IMG/VR virus record: IMGVR_UViG_3300048839_000152
Location: 1 to 28,482 of that record
Strand: one strand, 5' to 3'
Origin: a virus
DNA: 28,482 nucleotides
Numbering within the stretch: the first letter of the stretch is position 1; each line of letters begins with the position of its first letter. The position numbers were made by a program, and so were the translations under genes. The notes beneath the pieces are model-generated. The model did no database searches, was not told the origin of the DNA, and worked only from the letters and a program-made list of their open reading frames with translations. Shown in pieces: positions 3,017-27,855 of the stretch.

Positions 3017-3044
3017 GCCACGCCGCCTGAAATCCGTCAAGGTG

Positions 3045-3067
3045 GCCGGCGCGGATATTGTGCCGGC
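3045..3067 (+). promoter_or_regulatory. Intergenic hairpin
   Basis: GCCGGC (3045-3050) pairs with GCCGGC (3062-3067) around an 11-nt loop, between the gene ending at 3016 and leader element D. It is not followed by a T-run. Confidence 0.35.
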
Positions 3068-3075
3068 GTAATTTC

Positions 3076-3124
3076 AACCAACCACACCCGGACAGCCGCA
3101 ACCACCGGGGGACGCAAGTCCCCC
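3076..3124 (+). promoter_or_regulatory. Repeated structured leader element, copy D
   Basis: The AACCAACCACACCCGG start resembles copy B. CCCGG (3087-3091) can pair with CCGGG (3105-3109). A perfect 7-bp hairpin follows: GGGGGAC (3107-3113), a GCAA tetraloop and GTCCCCC (3118-3124). As in copy B the two stems share G residues. The tetraloop is again GNRA type although stem and loop bases differ. The ATG at 3146 follows. Confidence 0.65.
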
Positions 3125-3145
3125 ACAAGAAGGAAGTGAGGGGCG

Positions 3146-3412
3146 ATGATCAAGCTACCAGAACAGAACCACCCGGCAAGGCAACTTATGGACATTGCAA
3201 GCATTGCCGAGATGCTTCGCTCGGACAACCGTGCTAATCTCCCCACGTTGCGCAATGCGTTGCTGTATGCCGCATCGTATTTCATGGCAGAGGAAGCGGC
3301 GAAGGAACTGCACATGGTGTGCTGGAAGGCTGATGGTTCAATCGTGTTAGAACGCATCGGCAATCGTGGGGGTCACAACACCGTATGGTCGTTTATCGAG
3401 GCGCAATCATGA
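3146..3412 (+). CDS. Small protein of unknown function
   Basis: 88 residues from an ATG after GAGGGGCG. It is first of a three-gene coupled set (3146, 3409, 3618) whose stops and starts overlap by four bases each. It is mostly helical in the N-terminal two thirds (MDIASIAEMLRSDNRANLPT; LRNALLYAASYFMAEEAAKE). The C-terminus is beta-like, with VCWKADGSIVLERIGNRGG. No family recognised. Leader element D is immediately upstream and probably controls the set. Confidence 0.6.
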   Translation: MIKLPEQNHPARQLMDIASIAEMLRSDNRANLPTLRNALLYAASYFMAEEAAKELHMVCWKADGSIVLERIGNRGGHNTVWSFIEAQS

Positions 3413-3621
3413 ATAACTACGCAGCAGTATCCATGTACATCAGCCACATCGAGAACATCAAGGCGATGCTGGACGCACTCCAGCAGTACGCAAACGATTA
3501 CGGTGGCGTATGGCCTGACGATGTGACATACGCCACCGTGGGCGATGTGGCCCGTATCGCTGAGTTGCTGACAGAAGCCTGCACGTTTGCCGGTGTCAGC
3601 GTGGCGGTGGTTTCAGCATGA
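3409..3621 (+). CDS. Small helical protein of unknown function
   Basis: I chose the ATG at 3409, which overlaps the previous stop as ATGA. An earlier GTG in frame at 3385 lies inside the upstream gene. The 70-residue product has a long N-terminal helix (YISHIENIKAMLDALQQYAN). A GGVWPDDVTYATVGDVARIAE stretch and a small hydrophobic C-terminus follow. It is translationally coupled on both sides. No function can be assigned. Confidence 0.6.
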   Translation: MNNYAAVSMYISHIENIKAMLDALQQYANDYGGVWPDDVTYATVGDVARIAELLTEACTFAGVSVAVVSA

Positions 3622-3836
3622 CAACGCTACACAAAATCGAGTGGCACCCGTGGTTTACAAACCCACTCGACATGCTTGACAGTGATCGCCTTCGCACGCC
3701 AGACGGAAAGAAGGTTCGCATCCAGAAGCACACCGACTTCCGTGTCTATTTTGATGACGTGTTAGTCTACTCAGGCAGCAACGACAATTCCGCATGTTGC
3801 GCCTTCCTGAGAGACAATGACGTTAGTCAGGTGTAG
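3618..3836 (+). CDS. Small protein of unknown function; parent of a decayed copy downstream
   Basis: 72 residues starting in an ATGA overlap with the previous stop. The sequence is mixed alpha/beta with several aromatic and basic residues (EWHPWFTNPLDML; DGKKVRIQKHTDFRVYFDD) and a Cys-Cys pair near the C-terminus. Both its first 22 nt and its last roughly 45 nt recur fused together at 4040-4104, so the gene was once duplicated. No family recognised. It is the last intact gene of the left plus-strand module. Confidence 0.6.
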   Translation: MTTLHKIEWHPWFTNPLDMLDSDRLRTPDGKKVRIQKHTDFRVYFDDVLVYSGSNDNSACCAFLRDNDVSQV

Positions 3837-4039
3837 GCGCCCGACCCGGCAGTGGGCCGATCCAGGTTCGCCTGCGGATCGGCAAGGTCGCCGGGCAGGA
3901 GTTGCGCATACTGACGCTGGCCCGCCGCAGCGTCACCGGAAACCAGGCGATCACGCCGGACGACGTGGCGGCGCAGATAATTCATGCGGCGTGGCTGGAG
4001 TACGACGCCGGCGTCGAGGAGGCTGGTGAGGATGCCAGC
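3837..4039 (+). pseudogene. Fragment of a coding sequence without a start
   Basis: Frame 2 is open throughout and reads like protein: LRIGKVAGQELRILTLARR, then a D-D-V-A-A-Q-I-I-H-A-A-W-L-E-Y run. The codon choice is noticeably GC-rich compared with neighbouring genes. There is no convincing start codon or ribosome site, and the frame runs into the decayed copy of the upstream gene. I read it as the 3' part of a gene brought in by rearrangement. A short real gene using the TTG at 3902 is the alternative. Confidence 0.35.
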
Positions 4040-4104
4040 ATGACAACGCTACACAAAATGTTGCGCATTCCTGAGAGACAGCGACGTTGGTCAGGTGTAG
4101 GCGC
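4040..4104 (+). pseudogene. Internally deleted duplicate of the gene at 3618
   Basis: The bases from the ATG at 4040 (ATGACAACGCTACACAAAAT) are identical to the start of the gene at 3618. They are followed directly by a near-identical copy of that gene's last 45 nt, including TTCCTGAGAGACA and the downstream GTAGGCGCCC. The middle (roughly 150 bp) is missing, and the junction shifts the frame so the original stop is not used. This is a clear remnant of duplication plus deletion. Confidence 0.75.
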
Positions 4105-4113
4105 CCACCGCAG

Positions 4114-4140
4114 CCCCGCCACAAGGCGGGGTTCCTTTTT
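4114..4140 (+). terminator. Strong Rho-independent terminator of the left module
   Basis: CCCCGCC (4114-4120), loop ACAA and GGCGGGG (4125-4131) form a perfect 7-bp GC stem followed by TTCCTTTTT. It ends the plus-strand module just before the converging minus-strand late module. In the opposite direction there is no T-run after the stem. Confidence 0.9.
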
Positions 4141-4166
4141 GCCACCCGCCTATACGTTATGTCGAA

Positions 4167-4364
4167 TTAGCGGGGCGTCACATTGTCATGCTCCGGCGCA
4201 ACCCACCCGCTACCGTCCCACGTCCAACCGTCCGGCACGTCCAACGCCGCCGATGCACCGAACAGCATCGCCTGCACCTCTAGATTGATTCGGCCGATTG
4301 TCTCTCTCGCCTTTTCGATAGCATCAGTGATGCGCTGAGGGGCATTGATTTTCTGCTCGTTCAT
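4167..4364 (-). CDS. Small protein of unknown function at the end of the late module
   Basis: The start at 4364 overlaps the previous stop by four bases (ATGA). A longer in-frame version would lie inside that gene. The 65-residue product has an N-terminal helix (QRITDAIEKARETIGRINLE) and a C-terminus with closely spaced tryptophans in DVPDGWTWDGSGWVAPE. That pattern is seen in small phage proteins near tail genes. As the last gene of the late operon behind the tail fibre, it could be a tail-associated or lysis-related accessory. No family assigned. Confidence 0.6.
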   Translation of the reverse strand: MNEQKINAPQRITDAIEKARETIGRINLEVQAMLFGASAALDVPDGWTWDGSGWVAPEHDNVTPR

Positions 4365-20969: not shown

Positions 20970-21169
20970 TGTTTCGCCTTTCGTGGTCGCCCACGTTTCA
21001 CCGGCACAACATCCGGCACTTGCTCTGGTTCCGGTTCCTGCTCACGGAAAGCAAATGGCACGTAGTCATCCGTCAGACTCCAACCATCAGCCAACATGCG
21101 CCGCACTTCCGATGGTGCGGTCACGATCACTTCGTCGCCATCACGGTACAGTGTTACCGGTTCGCTCAT
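20966..21169 (-). CDS. Small protein with AT-hook-like tail
   Basis: The start at 21169 has GGGAGGGAATA directly upstream. The frame extends further but into the portal gene. The 67-residue product has a compact N-terminal domain (VTLYRDGDEVIVTAPSEVRR then MLADGWSLTD). This is often seen in short phage proteins encoded beside the portal. It ends in an acidic linker and KRGRPRKAKQ. The RGRP core is the AT-hook motif that grips the minor groove of AT-rich DNA. It may bind phage DNA at the portal. Confidence 0.6.
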   Translation of the reverse strand: MSEPVTLYRDGDEVIVTAPSEVRRMLADGWSLTDDYVPFAFREQEPEPEQVPDVVPVKRGRPRKAKQ

Positions 21170-22709
21170 TATTCCCTCCCTGATTCCCGTTCTGCGTTGT
21201 ATCTGCCGGTCGTTGCGCCTGTAGCCCTGCACGCCGCAATGCCTCAGACACGTTGGCGATCTTCACCGCCTCATCACGCCGCTTGTCTGCCTTCCAACCT
21301 GCGATGTCCGTTGGCGTGAAGCCCAACACCTGTTGCCAGATGGTGTTATCCGGCACGCCAAGAGCCTGGTACATTTGCCCGATTTGCGCCTGGGCTAACT
21401 CATTGCGCACGTTGGCGTCAGTCCACACGGTTTGGATCATCAGCGGGTCAACTTCTGGCACGCCGGAGCCGAACGTTTTCGCCAGTTGGTAGGCCATCGT
21501 AAAGGCATCCTCCCACGCCTGCCCGAACGTTAGCTGGCGCTCTTGCGCACGCTTGACTAGTCCGCTCTCAAGTTGCTTGAGAGCCTCACCGCTTGGCACG
21601 TCGCCGCCGCCCACGGGACGCAGGTAATACGCTGGCGTGCGTGAGACGCCGGCAACAGCCTGGACAATCGTCCACATGGTTTCAATCATCGGTTGCAGGT
21701 TGGATGCGTCAATCCGCTTGACAGTGCCATTGTCTACCTCAATCGCACGCCCCGGACTGATGCGAAACTCGTCATCACCTTCAATGTCGGCATCGTCCTG
21801 CTGCACAGCGCCAAATGCACTGTCGCCAGAATACTCGATTGCAACCACCGGAAAGCCGTTCGTGTCGGCAGCCGCTATCAGGTCAAGCCACGTTTTGTTC
21901 AGTGCGTTCTGTAGCCCGATAATCTGCTCAATCTCACTGCCGCCAGGGTTGGCAAACTCAATCACTGGAATGCCAAGCGGCGCACCTGTCGAGTCAACCC
22001 AGGGCAGCGGCCACGTTGGATCGCCAACATCCTGGAATGGTTCCCAGTTGCCCGTTTTGCTCATGATGTATTTCCTGATTTCGCCTGGCAGGTAAATCGT
22101 TTTGCGTTGCTTGCCAGTTTCGCCAGGATTGAGCGGGTCGAACGTGTAGAAGTAGCGACTGGCATGCAGCACATTGTCAGCATCTTCCGGGTCACGGTGT
22201 AGCATGATGCCCGGTTGCAGGTCGCCAGCATCGACACGATGAACGATGAACTTTGGTCGATTCTGCGCAGCGTCCCAATCGACAATCACGTAAGCCTTGC
22301 CATCCCTAAGCGCACGCCGATACAGCGTAATCTGTGCAGCATCCGTGCGGCTTGACTTCCACCACTGCCAGAACATCGCTGCAAGTTGCGCCGATGGTTG
22401 CGGATTGTCCTGCATGGTTGCATCGGCGGCGGTGTCATCGTTCACCGTGAAACCGCTCACATCAAGACGTTCCCGCAACGTGTCCACGATGGCACGCACC
22501 AGGTTGTGCGCAAAGGTAAATTCCGTATCCTCTACCAGTGCGCCCAGGTACTCCTGTTGGCGCTTGGTCAGCATGATCGGATGTTCGCCCTTGTAGTAGT
22601 CACGCAGCGCACGAACTTTTGCCGCCTCATTCGCTTGGCGGTCAACAATCCCCTGCATGTGGATAAAACGCTCAAGTTGCACCGGCGACAATGCCATAAT
22701 GTCAATCAT
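21141..22709 (-). CDS. Portal protein (SPP1 Gp6-like)
   Basis: 522 residues from the ATG at 22709, two bases after the terminase stop and with AAAGGA upstream. A longer frame lies inside the terminase gene. The sequence has Gp6-like features: an N-terminal helical region with LRDYYKGEHPIMLTKRQQEY, a segment around NLVRAIVDTLRERLDVSGF and a clip/stem region with VIEFANPGGSEIEQIIGLQN. After it come AYYLRPVGGGDVPSGEALKQ and a long C-terminal helix with a polar tail. It forms the dodecameric ring through which DNA is packaged. Confidence 0.85.
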   Translation of the reverse strand: MIDIMALSPVQLERFIHMQGIVDRQANEAAKVRALRDYYKGEHPIMLTKRQQEYLGALVEDTEFTFAHNLVRAIVDTLRERLDVSGFTVNDDTAADATMQDNPQPSAQLAAMFWQWWKSSRTDAAQITLYRRALRDGKAYVIVDWDAAQNRPKFIVHRVDAGDLQPGIMLHRDPEDADNVLHASRYFYTFDPLNPGETGKQRKTIYLPGEIRKYIMSKTGNWEPFQDVGDPTWPLPWVDSTGAPLGIPVIEFANPGGSEIEQIIGLQNALNKTWLDLIAAADTNGFPVVAIEYSGDSAFGAVQQDDADIEGDDEFRISPGRAIEVDNGTVKRIDASNLQPMIETMWTIVQAVAGVSRTPAYYLRPVGGGDVPSGEALKQLESGLVKRAQERQLTFGQAWEDAFTMAYQLAKTFGSGVPEVDPLMIQTVWTDANVRNELAQAQIGQMYQALGVPDNTIWQQVLGFTPTDIAGWKADKRRDEAVKIANVSEALRRAGLQAQRPADTTQNGNQGGNNERTGNTVP

Positions 22710-22711
22710 GC

Positions 22712-23914
22712 TCAGTATTCCTTTGCCCTTGCCCGTTTTCGTTGCGCAGCCGTCGCTCCGTGCCAACTCAGCGCCAGACTCATAACACAATCGTCGTGCA
22801 TAGAATCGGGCGCACTGTAGCGCACCATGCCGCTTTGCAATCGTTGCACTTCATACGCCTGCAACTCGGCTATTAACGTGGCGTCGTTCAGGATGCGGAT
22901 GTTGCCCTGCTCAAACGCCGCCGCGAGTGATTCGATGATGTCGGCTTTTGTGGCGTTCGTCGTGGTGAAGTCCCGCACGGGTAGACCCATCCTGCGCAGT
23001 TCGTCATTGTTCGGCTTGCCCATTGCGTTCGCTTCGGCAATCACGCCCGCCACGTTGAAGCGGTCGCACGCCGCCTTGATGCGCTGCCTCTGCATGGAGT
23101 AGTCCACGCCGTTGTAACGGTCGATGTAGACTAGCTCCCTTGTGTTGGCGTCGATGATGGTCAGCACGGTGAAGTCGTAGGACAATGCCCAGTCTAGCCC
23201 AGCCACGTAGGTCTTGTCACCACGCCTGCCCTCTGCCGGCGTTGCCGTTGCGCACTCGTTGATGCGCCGGAATAGCGAACCATCATCGACAAATTCGGCC
23301 ATCCATTCTTGGCGAAACGTGCGTTCAGGTACTTTGTCCTTGACTTTCTCAAACGCACGGCGAATCGTCGGCATGGGATTATCACTGGTTGGAGATGTCC
23401 AACTGCGCTGCTCCCTGTTTGCCGACTGCCCACGCACCCATTCAGTAAAAAACCAGTTCTTGCCCCGTGGCGTGCTAATCAGCACAGCGTCACCGTCATA
23501 GTCGGCAAGTGTCGGCATGATGGCATCTGTCCATGCGTCCTCGCCTATCTTCGCCGCTTCATCGATAACAACCAGGTTGAACGCCTCGCCACGGATTGAA
23601 TCGATGTTGTCGCCAGAGTACAGCCCGACAAACCCGCCTCGCCGTGTCTCTATGGTGCGCTCTGCCTTGTGAATGACGACCCGCTTATGCTTGGCGTCAT
23701 CGGCTACCGCCATCTGCAACCAACGCCACATGGGGCGAGTGTTCTTATACGTAGGTGCAACCCACGCCACCCGCCCATGCTGTTGTAATGTCAAGCCGAC
23801 AAGCACGCCACCTAGCACGGTTTTACCCCAACGTCTCCCCATCGATAGCACTTTGACCTTTGCTGGGTCACTCGCTATCTTCATCTGATCCCGGCGCAAC
23901 CGTGGTAAGTCCAT
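22712..23914 (-). CDS. terL: Terminase large subunit
   Basis: 400 residues. The N-terminal ATPase has Walker A GRRWGKT (26-32), Walker B VVIDEA (115-120) and the coupling motif STPRG (147-151). The C-terminal RNase H-like nuclease has its first aspartate in AGLDWALSYD (Asp241), an acidic AEANAMG (near 294) and HDD (374-376). It cuts the concatemer and drives DNA into the capsid. The start overlaps the small subunit gene by 47 nt. The length is a little below the usual 420-600 residues, but all motifs are present. Confidence 0.92.
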   Translation of the reverse strand: MDLPRLRRDQMKIASDPAKVKVLSMGRRWGKTVLGGVLVGLTLQQHGRVAWVAPTYKNTRPMWRWLQMAVADDAKHKRVVIHKAERTIETRRGGFVGLYSGDNIDSIRGEAFNLVVIDEAAKIGEDAWTDAIMPTLADYDGDAVLISTPRGKNWFFTEWVRGQSANREQRSWTSPTSDNPMPTIRRAFEKVKDKVPERTFRQEWMAEFVDDGSLFRRINECATATPAEGRRGDKTYVAGLDWALSYDFTVLTIIDANTRELVYIDRYNGVDYSMQRQRIKAACDRFNVAGVIAEANAMGKPNNDELRRMGLPVRDFTTTNATKADIIESLAAAFEQGNIRILNDATLIAELQAYEVQRLQSGMVRYSAPDSMHDDCVMSLALSWHGATAAQRKRARAKEY

Positions 23915-24263
23915 GTCTATAGTCCACTACTCGAATCGGAATATCATCGCCGTTTGGCCCACTGATTTCCGTCCTCTGCTCATATCGTTCGATGTATCCA
24001 CGATGCTTTGCTTGCGTCTTCAGGAAGAAAATAATCGCCGTGTTGTCGCCGCTGTTGATGTTCTGGTACAGCCTGCCCTCGGCAATGTCAATCATCGATT
24101 CCCGTGCATCCGTGACGGCTTGCTTGCACATGGCGTAGCGTTCCATGTAGTTGCGCACAGTCTGGTCAGAACACTGTAGATTCTTGGCAGCGACTGACAC
24201 GAACCCCTTAGCGGCAGTCAGTGCGGCCGCTACCTGTTGTGCTGTGTACCTGTCTGTTGCCAT
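23868..24263 (-). CDS. terS: Terminase small subunit
   Basis: 131 residues. The N-terminal helix-turn-helix (GFVSVAAKNLQCSDQTVRNY) recognises the packaging site. A central helical oligomerisation region and a C-terminal tail follow, overlapping the large subunit gene. It is the first gene read from the leftward promoter at 24336-24308, with a leader of about 38 nt. There is no strong Shine-Dalgarno sequence; TTTGGGATAA lies 7 nt before the ATG. Confidence 0.85.
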   Translation of the reverse strand: MATDRYTAQQVAAALTAAKGFVSVAAKNLQCSDQTVRNYMERYAMCKQAVTDARESMIDIAEGRLYQNINSGDNTAIIFFLKTQAKHRGYIERYEQRTEISGPNGDDIPIRVVDYRHGLTTVAPGSDEDSE

Positions 24264-24293: not shown

Positions 24294-24322
24294 TTGACAT
24301 ACTTGATTTTATATGATAAAAT
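24294..24322 (+). promoter_or_regulatory. Rightward promoter of the embedded operon
   Basis: TTGACA (24294-24299), 17 nt, TAAAAT (24317-24322). Transcription would start at about 24329-24330, that is at the A of the ATG of the ribbon-helix-helix gene, implying a leaderless message. Confidence 0.8.
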
Positions 24323-24336
24323 CAAGTACATGTCAA
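24308..24336 (-). promoter_or_regulatory. Leftward late promoter before terminase
   Basis: On the minus strand TTGACA (24336-24331), 17 nt, TATAAA (24313-24308). Transcription would start near 24301 and run into the terminase and head genes. It overlaps the rightward promoter on the other strand. Confidence 0.75.
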
Positions 24337-24536
24337 GACATGGAGGGAATCGCCCAGGTTCGGGGCGAAAATCCCTGTCATCTGAACCAACAGCAGTATT
24401 GAGCGTGACAATACTACGTTCGCAGCACGAATGGCTATCACGTCGGACTGTCAACATATCTCAATTTATCCGTTCTCTAGTGCAAAAGGAAATCGACAAT
24501 GACAATCAAGAGACGCAGTTACACGATCAATCCTGA
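24330..24536 (+). CDS. Ribbon-helix-helix repressor candidate
   Basis: 68 residues. The ATG at 24330 is chosen because it coincides with the predicted transcription start; upstream in-frame codons fall in the promoter. The flexible N-terminus GGNRPGSGRKS is common in small phage DNA-binding proteins. TAVLSVTILRSQHEWLSRRT then VNISQFIRSLVQKEID follows the ribbon-helix-helix plan: one beta strand, helix, turn, helix. Its own promoter and the opposing late promoter both sit in a palindrome with four half-sites, so it is likely an autorepressor. The end overlaps the radical SAM gene by 38 nt. Confidence 0.75.
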   Translation: MSRHGGNRPGSGRKSLSSEPTAVLSVTILRSQHEWLSRRTVNISQFIRSLVQKEIDNDNQETQLHDQS

Positions 24537-25320
24537 CGGTTGGAGTGTCGCCGGATGCTCCTACATCTATGCCCCTCGTGGGCAAGCTGGCGAGTATGCC
24601 AAGCTCGCCGCCAACCCGTACCGAGGATGTGGACACGCCTGCGCTTACTGCTACGTGCCAAAGGTGCTGAAGATTGACCGTCCGACGTTTGACGCCTCGG
24701 CATCTCCCCGCCCCGGCTTTATTGACTCCTTGCGCAAAGATGCCGCCAAGTATCAGGCGTGCGGCATCACGGAACAGGTCATGCTGAGTTTCACGACTGA
24801 CCCTTTCAACCCGTTTGACGTGTCGCTGACTCGCCCGACGATTGAAACTTTGATCAATCATGGTTTGGCATTCTGCACGCTCACCAAAGGCGGAAGCCGT
24901 GCGATCCCATTTCTTGACCTTTTCCGCCCTGAGCGTGACGCATTCGCCAGCACTCTCACTAGCATGGACGATGCATTTAGTCGCAAGTGGGAGCGTGGCG
25001 CTCAATTGCCCGGAGACAGAATCGCCACGCTGCGAGCCTTCCACGCCGCCGGCATCTTCACATGGGTGTCTCTGGAGCCAACACTTGACACCGCCAGCAG
25101 CATCTCCATCATCGAAGCTACGCATGAGTTTGTTGATCTGTACAAGATCGGGCGGGCTAACTACCTGCCGATGACATACACCACAGACTGGCAGGATTAC
25201 ACCATGCGAATTTTGGATGTCGTCAATCGTCTTGGTGTCAAGCACTACATTAAGCATGACTTGCAACCCTATCTGCCAACCGGCTATCACAACCCAAAGT
25301 ACATCTCCCAGCACAACTAG
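24499..25320 (+). CDS. Radical SAM protein, spore photoproduct lyase-like
   Basis: 273 residues. The CX3CX2C motif (Cys44, Cys48, Cys51 in YRGCGHACAYCYV) binds the [4Fe-4S] cluster that cleaves S-adenosylmethionine. The downstream TTDPFNP (98-104), FCTLTKG and WVSLEPT motifs place it in the SplB-like family (COG1533). That family includes DNA repair lyases but also many uncharacterised members. The start has AAGGA upstream and lies inside the repressor gene. It is the only enzyme gene on this strand in the late region. Substrate unknown: a nucleobase in phage DNA or repair of a lesion are the natural guesses. Confidence 0.85.
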   Translation: MTIKRRSYTINPDGWSVAGCSYIYAPRGQAGEYAKLAANPYRGCGHACAYCYVPKVLKIDRPTFDASASPRPGFIDSLRKDAAKYQACGITEQVMLSFTTDPFNPFDVSLTRPTIETLINHGLAFCTLTKGGSRAIPFLDLFRPERDAFASTLTSMDDAFSRKWERGAQLPGDRIATLRAFHAAGIFTWVSLEPTLDTASSISIIEATHEFVDLYKIGRANYLPMTYTTDWQDYTMRILDVVNRLGVKHYIKHDLQPYLPTGYHNPKYISQHN

Positions 25321-25916
25321 AGCCTAAGCACTGCGGCATAGTGCGTCATTTGGTCGTCATGTCCGCAGTAATATCCAGCCCAGCGGGTAAGCGTATAGCC
25401 ACGTTTACCCGCTTTTTGTTCGACAAGCTCCCTGCATATCTCCAGGTATCGCCTGTAAATGCTACTCGCCCCATACCGTGTCGCGATTTCCGACAACGCT
25501 TGCACGTCCCATCCGCCAGTCATTTTGAGTTTTTGCCGCAAGCCATCATTTACCGCAATCGCCAACACGGGCAGAAACTCTCGCTTCGACTCAAAAAATG
25601 CATCAATCGTAGACCACGGTTCGCCATATGGATCGAAGTCCACAAAGTTTACCGGCAGGTGTGCGCCTGCCCCACTACGCAAGGCGTTGACGCAATCGCA
25701 CTCGTACACAGCCCATGTCGGGCGCTGCATGGCTAACGCCTCAGCCTTCTGAGGTTCTTTTTCCATGACAACGCCATCCCGAATGGCATAGTAGCACTTC
25801 GACCAAATGCCACCATATCCTCCATGTGTCTCCATGACGATGGGATTGTCGATTTCCTGCAACAGCTTTCGCCTAAGCGATGCCTTCAAGGGTAGAGTAA
25901 AGTTGTCCTTTTTCAT
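25317..25916 (-). CDS. Methyltransferase-like protein
   Basis: 199 residues, overlapping the ParB-like gene upstream by 44 nt. It follows a class I methyltransferase plan in unpermuted order. A motif I-like PIVMETHGGYGGIW (about 25-40) comes first, with an acidic turn VVMEKEP. DC.NAL comes next, then the catalytic-type VNFVDFDPYGEPW (DPYG; reminiscent of the DPPY and Trm1 DPFG motifs). The target could be DNA or RNA. The ATG at 25916 or one before ETHGG may be used. Its TAG stop shares CTAG with the stop of the convergent radical SAM gene. Confidence 0.6.
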   Translation of the reverse strand: MKKDNFTLPLKASLRRKLLQEIDNPIVMETHGGYGGIWSKCYYAIRDGVVMEKEPQKAEALAMQRPTWAVYECDCVNALRSGAGAHLPVNFVDFDPYGEPWSTIDAFFESKREFLPVLAIAVNDGLRQKLKMTGGWDVQALSEIATRYGASSIYRRYLEICRELVEQKAGKRGYTLTRWAGYYCGHDDQMTHYAAVLRL

Positions 25917-26517
25917 GTGATTTCAGGTAATGCCGACAAATCTCCAAAATGGCAATGCCCCGGTTTCTATTCCCTGTTGCCTTGATTGCCCGCTCAAAAT
26001 CTGCCAGGTCGTCAGCGTACAAAACCGCCTTGATCTGCTTGCTTTTGTCGCCAAGCATCCGTTCGTTTTCGTTTGTGTCTTGCAGCGTAGTCTTTTCGTC
26101 GGTTGCGATCAACTCGTCAAGTTCGTTTTGAAACCAAAACGCAGACAGGTCTAAACCTGCGTCCAAATCTGCAAGAATCTGTTCGGCGTCAAATTCCAAA
26201 TCAAGCTCACCCACACGATTGTCAGCATAGGCCAGCCCTCGCCCTTCTGGTGAGTCTATGTCCAGGTCGGTGCGTTGCACGGCGACAATCTGCTTGCCGT
26301 CCGTCTGCACGACGATGACATCCTCCAACCCAACATCTGCGGCAACCTCGACCGTCTTGTTGCCTGCGATGATGCGGCCCTCCCTGTCAAGCACGATGCT
26401 GCGCCCTGCCCCGTACTGGCGCAAGGATGCCTCTAGTGCGTAGCGCCCCCGCTCAGTACCTTTGTTGGCGTTGGCGTGGTCTGGTATCAAGTCAGCTATT
26501 TTGCGTTTATCCGTCAC
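25873..26517 (-). CDS. ParB-like nuclease-domain protein, paralogue without methyltransferase domain
   Basis: 214 residues, GTG start overlapping the previous stop (GTGA). Residues 1-135 are a ParB-like domain (IPDHANANKGTERGR; YGAGRSIVLDREGRIIAGNK; YADNRVGEL) nearly identical in layout to that of the fusion protein at 26722. The C-terminus (about 140-214) is different: a short helical domain with AVLYADDLADFERAIKAT and GIAILEICRHYL. Proteins of this kind often accompany phage methyltransferases. Here the methyltransferase is the separate next gene, so the pair is a split version of the upstream fusion. Confidence 0.75.
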   Translation of the reverse strand: MTDKRKIADLIPDHANANKGTERGRYALEASLRQYGAGRSIVLDREGRIIAGNKTVEVAADVGLEDVIVVQTDGKQIVAVQRTDLDIDSPEGRGLAYADNRVGELDLEFDAEQILADLDAGLDLSAFWFQNELDELIATDEKTTLQDTNENERMLGDKSKQIKAVLYADDLADFERAIKATGNRNRGIAILEICRHYLKSHEKGQLYSTLEGIA

Positions 26518-26721: not shown

Positions 26722-27855
26722 CTATTCCACCCTCACCGGCGTCTTACCCGTATGCGTTGCCCATCGTTCCAGCGCCACCGCCACATACCCCGGCGCAATC
26801 TCCACCGCCCGACACCGCCGCCCCAAGTTCTCGCAAGCGATTATGGTTGTGCCGCTGCCGCTAAACAGATCAAGGGTGACGCCGCCGTCCGGCGAAAATC
26901 CCTCTATAAGTGGCTCTATGATTTTCACGTGTTTTGCGTGCGGGTGATCGCTCTGCCGGTCGAACTTCGATGAGCACTCGATTATTGAGTGCAATCCGTT
27001 CAGGCTGTAATTTTTGGCGTTTGCGGCTCGATAGTGCGCAATGCAAAGATGTTGCAATATCGGAATGTAAATATTGAGATTCCAAGAAAACTGCTTAAAA
27101 TACACGACGAAAAATTGATTGAACCGTTCGCCAAATATTTGTGCCGCCTGAATATGCTGACGGTCACCAGCCATGACCAGCCAATGCGGAATCTCACAGA
27201 GGCCATCGGTATATAGCCAATCCATCGGTGCGTCGTACTCTGGATCAGCCAACAACAGGACAGCATTATCACACGCCATCACCCTCGCCACGACCGCCGC
27301 ATCCGTGCAGTCGCCACAGATCAGCCGGTGCTCGCCAAGCTGCCACATCCGACCCGACTCCACGCCCCACTTCTGACGCAGTTCCTCCGCCCGGTCAATC
27401 TGCGGCTCGGTGTCGCCTTCCGTGCCTTTCGGTTGCAGGTCTGCGAGTAGTTCGTCTAGCTCATCCTGCCGAAACAACGCCGACAAATCCACGCCTGCGT
27501 TGATGTCTGCTAACACTTGCTCGGCGTCCCATTCCAGCGACAACTCGCCTACCCTGTTGTCGGCATAGGCCAGCCCTCGCCCCTCTGCGCTATCGATGTC
27601 CAGGTCTGTACGCTGCACGGCGACAATCTGCTTGCCGTCCGTCTGGATGATAATCACATTATCCAAGCCGATGTCGGCGGCGGTCTCTACCGTTTTGTTG
27701 CCGGAAATGATACGCCCGTTCTTGTCGATCAGGATGCTGCGCCCCGCCCCGTATTTGCGGAGTGACGCTTCCAAAGCGGAGCGCCCCCGCTCCGTGCCTT
27801 TGTTGGCGTTGGCGTGGTCTGGTATCAGGTCTGATAGTTTACGCTTGTTCGTCAT
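26722..27855 (-). CDS. ParB-like domain fused to a DNA methyltransferase with altered motif IV
   Basis: 377 residues. The N-terminal ParB-like domain (1-135) is followed by an adenine/cytosine-type methyltransferase in permuted order: a catalytic motif IV position reading LLADPEYDAP (204-207 DPEY instead of DPPY), HPHAKHVKIIEPLI, and the SAM-binding motif I DLFSGSGTT (329-337). The Pro-to-Glu change could affect activity or specificity. The middle region at 26960-27180 is visibly more AT-rich than the rest of the gene, so the target-recognition part may have been exchanged. It overlaps the upstream gene by four bases. Likely modifies phage DNA. Confidence 0.8.
   Translation of the reverse strand: MTNKRKLSDLIPDHANANKGTERGRSALEASLRKYGAGRSILIDKNGRIISGNKTVETAADIGLDNVIIIQTDGKQIVAVQRTDLDIDSAEGRGLAYADNRVGELSLEWDAEQVLADINAGVDLSALFRQDELDELLADLQPKGTEGDTEPQIDRAEELRQKWGVESGRMWQLGEHRLICGDCTDAAVVARVMACDNAVLLLADPEYDAPMDWLYTDGLCEIPHWLVMAGDRQHIQAAQIFGERFNQFFVVYFKQFSWNLNIYIPILQHLCIAHYRAANAKNYSLNGLHSIIECSSKFDRQSDHPHAKHVKIIEPLIEGFSPDGGVTLDLFSGSGTTIIACENLGRRCRAVEIAPGYVAVALERWATHTGKTPVRVE

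Follow-up and report, generated by a model that had tools for sequence, protein, structure and literature searches.

The described proteins closest to the locus studied here belong to several families. Spore photoproduct lyase (SPL, or SplB; the family of PDB entry 4FHC) is a radical SAM enzyme in whose PDB entries we take Cys140 to be the hydrogen donor. Trm1 is a tRNA (guanine-26-N2)-dimethyltransferase, and the aspartate of its motif IV, D-P-F/Y-G, is catalytic. The DUF5131 family (PF07505) presumably comprises the phage Gp37/Gp68 three-Cys-motif proteins, and TcmP (TIGR04474) is the methyltransferase-like partner of the three-Cys protein, an association with DUF5131 that we take from the NCBIfam model. 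The searchable literature, outside which most subscription papers lie, gives no function for DUF5131 or for the three-Cys-motif pair. Likewise, no function for the PA0069 (NF033668) and Rv2578c (NF038135) families, which have the same NPYRGC-H-C-YCY core as the radical SAM proteins analysed here, was found in the searchable literature. In the part available of one report, a gene of the Rv2578c family is labelled putative SplB in several strains and has 17.6% identity to the SplB of B. subtilis (PMC12924846).

The window, that is, the whole stretch of DNA that we analysed, is the 28,482-base virus record IMGVR_UViG_3300048839_000152 of IMG/VR (Table 1). A preliminary description had placed an SPL-like radical SAM (rSAM) gene of phage origin opposite the late genes of the packaging region. 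In agreement with this, the gene lies on the plus strand, divergent from the minus-strand genes for both terminase subunits and the portal protein. What that description overlooked is the important feature of the locus, namely the linked genes for a ParB-like protein and for a Trm1-like class I methyltransferase, called C4 here. The position in the packaging region applies to the window and not in general. Thus, in the Bradyrhizobium-type prophages L055, L056, L058 and L059 the rSAM gene is located in the early region and C4 is missing; in L058, the only one in which these families were tested, its neighbours are genes of the exonuclease VIII/DUF3799-like type and with a DnaA C-terminal domain.

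Table 1. Features around the rSAM gene in the window (strand of the palindrome given as a dot).
Feature	Position	Strand	Basis or remark
Portal protein	21141..22790	-	PF05133 E 5.7e-29
Terminase large subunit	22712..23914	-	PF17289 E 1.1e-8; phrog_2 E 1.8e-42
Terminase small subunit	23868..24263	-	phrog_309 E 4.4e-8
Sigma70-type promoter match, TTGACA-17-TAAAAT, 11/12	24294..24322	+	consensus match only
Perfect palindrome, 13-bp arms, 3-nt loop, 29 bp, operator-like	24300..24328	.	sequence
Small ribbon-helix-helix-like protein, 68 aa	24330..24536	+	ATG at 24330; 38-nt overlap with rSAM start
SPL-like radical SAM enzyme, 273 aa	24499..25320	+	PF04055, pLDDT 94.1, 58-row alignment, purifying selection
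CX3CX2C cluster motif, C44/C48/C51	24628..24651	+	invariant in 58/58 aligned relatives
Phe98 codon, at SPL Cys140 position	24790..24792	+	hhalign pairing; F in 58/58
C4, Trm1-like class I methyltransferase, 199 aa	25317..25916	-	convergent with rSAM; profile and fold
ParB-like protein	25873..26517	-	phrog_620 E 2.1e-19, phrog_498 E 4.1e-18; 44-nt overlap with C4 start
ParB domain fused to N6/N4 DNA methyltransferase	26722..27855	-	PF01555 E 1.4e-13; phrog_498 E 6.7e-62

By its cysteine motif, its match to the Pfam family Radical_SAM (PF04055; E 1.1e-7, 32.6 bits against a cut-off of 29.5) and the confident barrel predicted by AlphaFold2, whose listed fold matches are nearly all radical SAM enzymes, the protein is a member of the radical SAM superfamily. 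The cluster motif is intact, as previously claimed, and none of the 58 aligned homologues has lost it. The family is viral and large. Relatives in IMG/VR share 55-96% identity with the window protein, and a second, more remote group shares 37-42%; a scan of 2.9 million contigs with the relatives' alignment gave 380 relatives, and 80 of these were retained. Exact-peptide seeding over 84,980 species genomes produced 16 matches, including records of Bradyrhizobium, Chloroploca and Herpetosiphon, while the plasmid search yielded 13 records, all of them weak relatives (24-32% identity). The gene, which starts with ATG, is under purifying selection, with dN 0.071 and dS 1.03 (dN/dS about 0.07) in the comparison with L003, and dN 0.023 and dS 0.18 (about 0.13) in that with L002. 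The relatives, the invariant cysteines, the low dN/dS and the confidence of the model together indicate that this is a real gene and not a chance ORF.

A family search of the 273-aa chain revealed neither a SPASM nor an auxiliary-cluster domain, and PADLOC gave no match for the rSAM, C4 or the small protein encoded upstream, for which reason a defence-system identity was rejected. When the long rSAM frames were scanned for fusions, two inteins were found, and beyond these just extensions that we took as spurious upstream reading. The inteins, of about 328 aa (L043:4735-6678) and about 345 aa (L051:4819-6675), start with C-L-T/S-G-D-T, finish with HN and are each inserted immediately in front of the third cysteine of the cluster motif, which means that splicing would be required to restore the [4Fe-4S] site.

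Since phmmer and profile searches against the PDB sequences gave no relevant match, the rSAM protein was compared by fold and by profile-profile alignment. The SPL-like fold that had been claimed was recovered: SPL was the best VIA-align match of the model (Z 16.9, 223 aligned residues, 13% identity), tied within 1 with lipoyl synthase (Z 16.1), and RlmN, TYW1, SuiB and the PFL-activating enzyme were among the other matches. In profile-profile comparison by hhalign, the rSAM matched SPL with an E value of 4.5e-7. The likeness extends to the radical SAM barrel and to a CX3CX2C motif followed by tyrosine. This tyrosine (Y52), kept in 54 of 58 relatives, corresponds to Y98 of the SPL PDB entries, a residue with a role in SPL. 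In contrast, the position of Cys140 is occupied by the invariant Phe98. Thus, of the catalytic residues whose comparison with SPL had been proposed, the tyrosine is present and the cysteine is replaced. The window protein also differs from SPL in being shorter and in its link to ParB and methyltransferase genes.

The family models were searched as well. The SPL model, TIGR03886, did not match the window rSAM at E 0.1 and matched just 3 of the 58 members, weakly (best E 3.9e-4). The PA0069 and Rv2578c models matched all 58. On these two the window protein scored 41 bits, better than on the SPL model; the cut-offs are 360 and 430 bits, and equivalog membership in either family was ruled out. Because the hydrogen-donor cysteine of SPL is replaced, we conclude that the enzyme does not work by SPL chemistry. 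Its identification as SPL was rejected on the basis of this replacement and of the SPL family models, and with it the SPL-type repair suggested previously.

C4, the convergent neighbour, has no accepted family match. Its alignment profile matched Trm1 2dul with an E value of 3.2e-4, and the best PDB fold for its model (pLDDT 89.8) was Trm1 3axs (Z 14.6, 188 residues aligned). D93, D95 and Y97 of the motif D93-x-D95-x-Y97-G are invariant in the C4 alignment A2. D95 (29/29 and 39/39) is aligned with D138 of Trm1, pairing the DLDxYGxP of C4 with D138-P-F-G on the same fold core. Membership in Trm1 was nevertheless rejected, because NF003327 gave 12.5 bits against 568 and the Trm1 C-terminal domain is missing. 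Unlike Trm1 (378 aa), C4 lacks the C-terminal half, is phage-borne and is linked to ParB and rSAM genes. C4 is far more variable than the rSAM, its relatives being 15-64% identical to the window protein, with one at 99%; judged from these sequences, such variability would sit oddly with a common fixed substrate. Between the window (25320-25916) and L002 (3179-3775), C4 has 99.5% DNA identity and the adjacent rSAM gene 95%, a difference that points to a recombination boundary between the two genes. Searches of the GenBank phages with the window or the L193 query found no C4, and with the L212 query C4 was found in Dulem virus 36 only.

Upstream of C4 lie two ParB-like genes. A direct repeat of 300 nt (26104-26403 and 27442-27741; 72% DNA identity) marks the ParB part of the methyltransferase fusion as a diverged tandem copy of the neighbouring ParB-like gene. 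Since the ParB-C4 pair thus adjoins a paralogous ParB-DNA methyltransferase, C4 appears to occupy the place where the DNA methyltransferase domain usually stands. ParB is upstream of C4 or fused to it in 72 of 80 C4 records (the best 80 of 152), and C4-ParB fusions are found in four loci (L019, L025, L043 and L142). In the ParB-fused N6/N4 methyltransferase of the window, motif IV reads DPEY, not DPPY.

A survey of the neighbours of close homologues, as had been proposed, uncovered the linkage. The 129 rSAM loci counted are the best-kept matches of the single-protein and alignment scans plus the genome matches; the distant genome matches L083-L086, the window duplicate L001 and the loci L087-L095, which came from C4 queries, were left out, and the counts include near-copies except in a reduced set of 104. 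Within 3 kb of the rSAM gene, C4 was present at 64 of the 129 loci, a ParB/N6-N4-type methyltransferase at 16, and either of them at 78 (64 of 104 with near-copies removed). Where 3 kb were available on both sides, 38 of 67 loci had either partner and 29 had neither. Among these well-flanked loci, a partner was present in 20 of the 21 with a terminase large subunit within 3 kb and in 18 of the 46 without. Since 51 of the 129 loci have neither partner within 3 kb, and the whole-record search of such loci recovered C4 in only 3 of 32 records, the pairing is not obligate; about half of the rSAM loci have no nearby C4. A requirement for any N6/N4 methyltransferase was also rejected, PF01555 being present in only 11 of 35 mixed records.

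The search from the side of C4 was the most telling: the rSAM is present in 48 of 80 C4-bearing records (the best 80 of 152), compared with 380 relatives among all 2.9 million contigs scanned. Bradyrhizobium lablabi SZCCT0422 (L073) and B. oropedii Pear76 (L071) have both C4 and the rSAM. Note that of 49 rSAM matches in these records one, G096 (E 7.7e-4, within a DUF5131 gene), was scored as DUF5131, and that G076, a piece of 34 aa where the contig ends, was retained as rSAM. The link persists despite changes of gene order or strand in L053, L062, L218, L220 and Dulem virus 36. The order ParB - C4 - rSAM is also found in the bin contig L252 and in the GenBank phage PP511521 (Dulem virus 36), where the trio is annotated as a ParB protein, a hypothetical protein and a PA0069 family radical SAM protein.

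In the C4 loci that have no rSAM, the same slot is mostly taken, in the same orientation, by DUF5131 (in the 8 that were tested, the E values ranged from 1e-64 to 1e-83). Over the whole of the 80 C4-bearing records, DUF5131 was found in 25, rSAM in 48, both as separate genes in none, and neither in 7, some of which are short fragments. Of 26 PF07505 matches, the one in G110 falls on the rSAM gene and was left uncounted; four additional matches, in G111, G114, G103 and G093, lie within rSAM genes. The mutual exclusion has a Fisher p of 5e-8 on 50 records, these being treated as independent though the phages are related. Mapped onto the C4 tree, the partner label requires 12 changes, and the starred branches force at least 6 of these; shuffled labels require about 20 on average. 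The partners are therefore clustered on the tree, yet have been swapped repeatedly. The two partners are homologous by profile (hhalign E 3.4e-8, 199 columns), and DUF5131 has CX6CX2C instead of CX3CX2C. The window rSAM did not match PF07505 at E 0.1; one distant relative, G111, passes the PF07505 cut-off, and some other distant members match the model. A separate observation is that L045 (record G020), which has no C4, carries an rSAM and a true separate DUF5131 gene.

A similar arrangement exists in bacteria, where DUF5131 adjoins TcmP in 15 of the 15 TcmP loci examined (25 matching genomes among 149). By analogy, these bacterial pairs resemble the rSAM/C4 pair in principle. TcmP has FAGxG and DPxG-type motifs in common with C4, but is longer and was found here in bacterial genomes. 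The identification of C4 as TcmP is unsupported: the profile similarity is weak (hhalign E 7.7e-4, probability 25), and 0 of 29 C4 members matched TIGR04474 at E 0.1. In a sixteenth TcmP locus, that of G168 (L251:2263-3048, 3042-4226), an SPL-like rSAM with CX3CX3C (GCSHGCLYPC) overlaps TcmP and takes the place of DUF5131.

The direct coupling of the rSAM gene to a repressor, also claimed previously, was borne out in part. The overlap of the small ORF with the rSAM start, the palindrome and the promoter, which is predicted to overlap the palindrome just upstream of the small ORF, fit a regulator, and from this pattern the small protein is likely an autoregulator. On the other hand, it matched no family model at E <= 0.01, and homologues turned up in only 8 of 87 loci, the window itself counting twice among the 8. 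The palindrome is not expected by chance (0 of 2000 shuffles reached an 11-bp arm). It is identical in L002 and absent from nine other relatives inspected, so control through it would be local to this clade.

With a probability of about 0.5, we propose that the rSAM supplies the radical step in a module of two enzymes that is targeted by the ParB-like protein and modifies nucleic acid, most likely phage DNA. Since the key SPL residue is missing and a methyltransferase and a ParB-like protein accompany the gene, the enzyme probably adds an uncharacterised mark to nucleic acid, most likely to the virus's own DNA. The module would consist of the ParB-like protein, C4 and the SPL-fold rSAM. The ParB-like protein would bind or select phage DNA, and C4 would grip a base, perhaps the exocyclic amine of guanine by its Trm1-type motif, and methylate or prime it. 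The rSAM, on an SPL scaffold without SPL chemistry, would cleave SAM, and the 5'-deoxyadenosyl radical would further functionalise the base handled by C4. Alternatively, C4 could be a non-catalytic scaffold. The likely benefit would be that phage DNA is shielded from host nucleases, or marked before packaging. Of the options in the preliminary description, base modification therefore stands as one and SPL-type repair does not. More tentatively, ParB, the Trm1-like methyltransferase and either the SPL-fold rSAM or DUF5131 may form a previously undescribed system for hypermodifying phage DNA, with the radical SAM enzyme elaborating a base primed by the methyltransferase.

DNA is favoured as the substrate by the paralogy of the ParB-like gene next to C4 with the ParB part of the DNA methyltransferase fusion and by the contexts, terminase in the window and the exonuclease VIII-like and DnaA-C genes in L058. 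An RNA substrate is conceivable because C4 resembles, in profile and fold, the tRNA enzyme Trm1, and RlmN and TYW1, among the fold matches of the rSAM, act on RNA; the targets of the two enzymes would then be tRNA or rRNA of the host or the phage, and the gain could be, for instance, escape from a defence that cuts tRNA or is directed at ribosomes, or a bias towards late translation. We consider this unlikely, given that the ParB-like partner is in the window also fused to a DNA methyltransferase, that the gene lies by terminase or, in the Bradyrhizobium-type prophages, by exonuclease VIII/DnaA-C genes, that the window contains no tRNA gene, and that C4 lacks half of Trm1. More doubtful is that rSAM and C4 merely share a cargo or counter-defence spot by the terminase and do not act jointly. 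The many rSAM loci without C4 and the separable inheritance implied by the comparison with L002 would agree with this; the arguments against it are that DUF5131, a distant homologue, takes the same slot in mutual exclusion with the rSAM, that the link survives changes of order and strand, and that bacterial genomes contain the analogous pair with TcmP.

Repair of UV lesions by a phage enzyme of the SPL type, or by a related radical DNA repair enzyme, is improbable. It would account for SPL being the top fold, for the profile-profile match, for the conserved tyrosine and for the fact that one relative matches a PHROG labelled 'DNA repair photolyase' (E 2.3e-6), but lipoyl synthase ties with SPL on Z, Cys140 is an invariant phenylalanine and the SPL family models reject the protein. 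Moreover, we know of no counterpart in SPL repair to a methyltransferase partner or to an exchange with DUF5131. A protein of the phage or host, such as an anti-defence peptide or the terminase, is a very improbable substrate of the rSAM, with C4 then serving as its protein partner: the fold matches do include SuiB and the PFL-activating enzyme, rSAMs that modify RiPPs or proteins, but neither the chain, in which the family search found no SPASM or auxiliary-cluster domain, nor the ParB and DNA methyltransferase context fits such a role.

The ParB-C4-rSAM module is not described in the available parts of PMC10783043, PMC12429752, PMC3765255 and PMC12924846, nor did we find a description in the searchable literature, from which most subscription papers are missing, so that this result is no proof of novelty. 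With the proposed module, a testable idea takes the place of the label 'spore photoproduct lyase', which is misleading, and three orphan families are joined: the viral SPL-like rSAM, DUF5131 and the Trm1/TcmP-like partners. Should DNA be what the module modifies, phage DNA would be hypermodified by radical chemistry under the guidance of a ParB-like protein, and the position of such genes next to terminase and recombination genes would be explained. If the hypermodification proposal is true, DUF5131/TcmP would be a cellular version of the same two-enzyme chemistry, and two families without an assigned function would gain one testable role.
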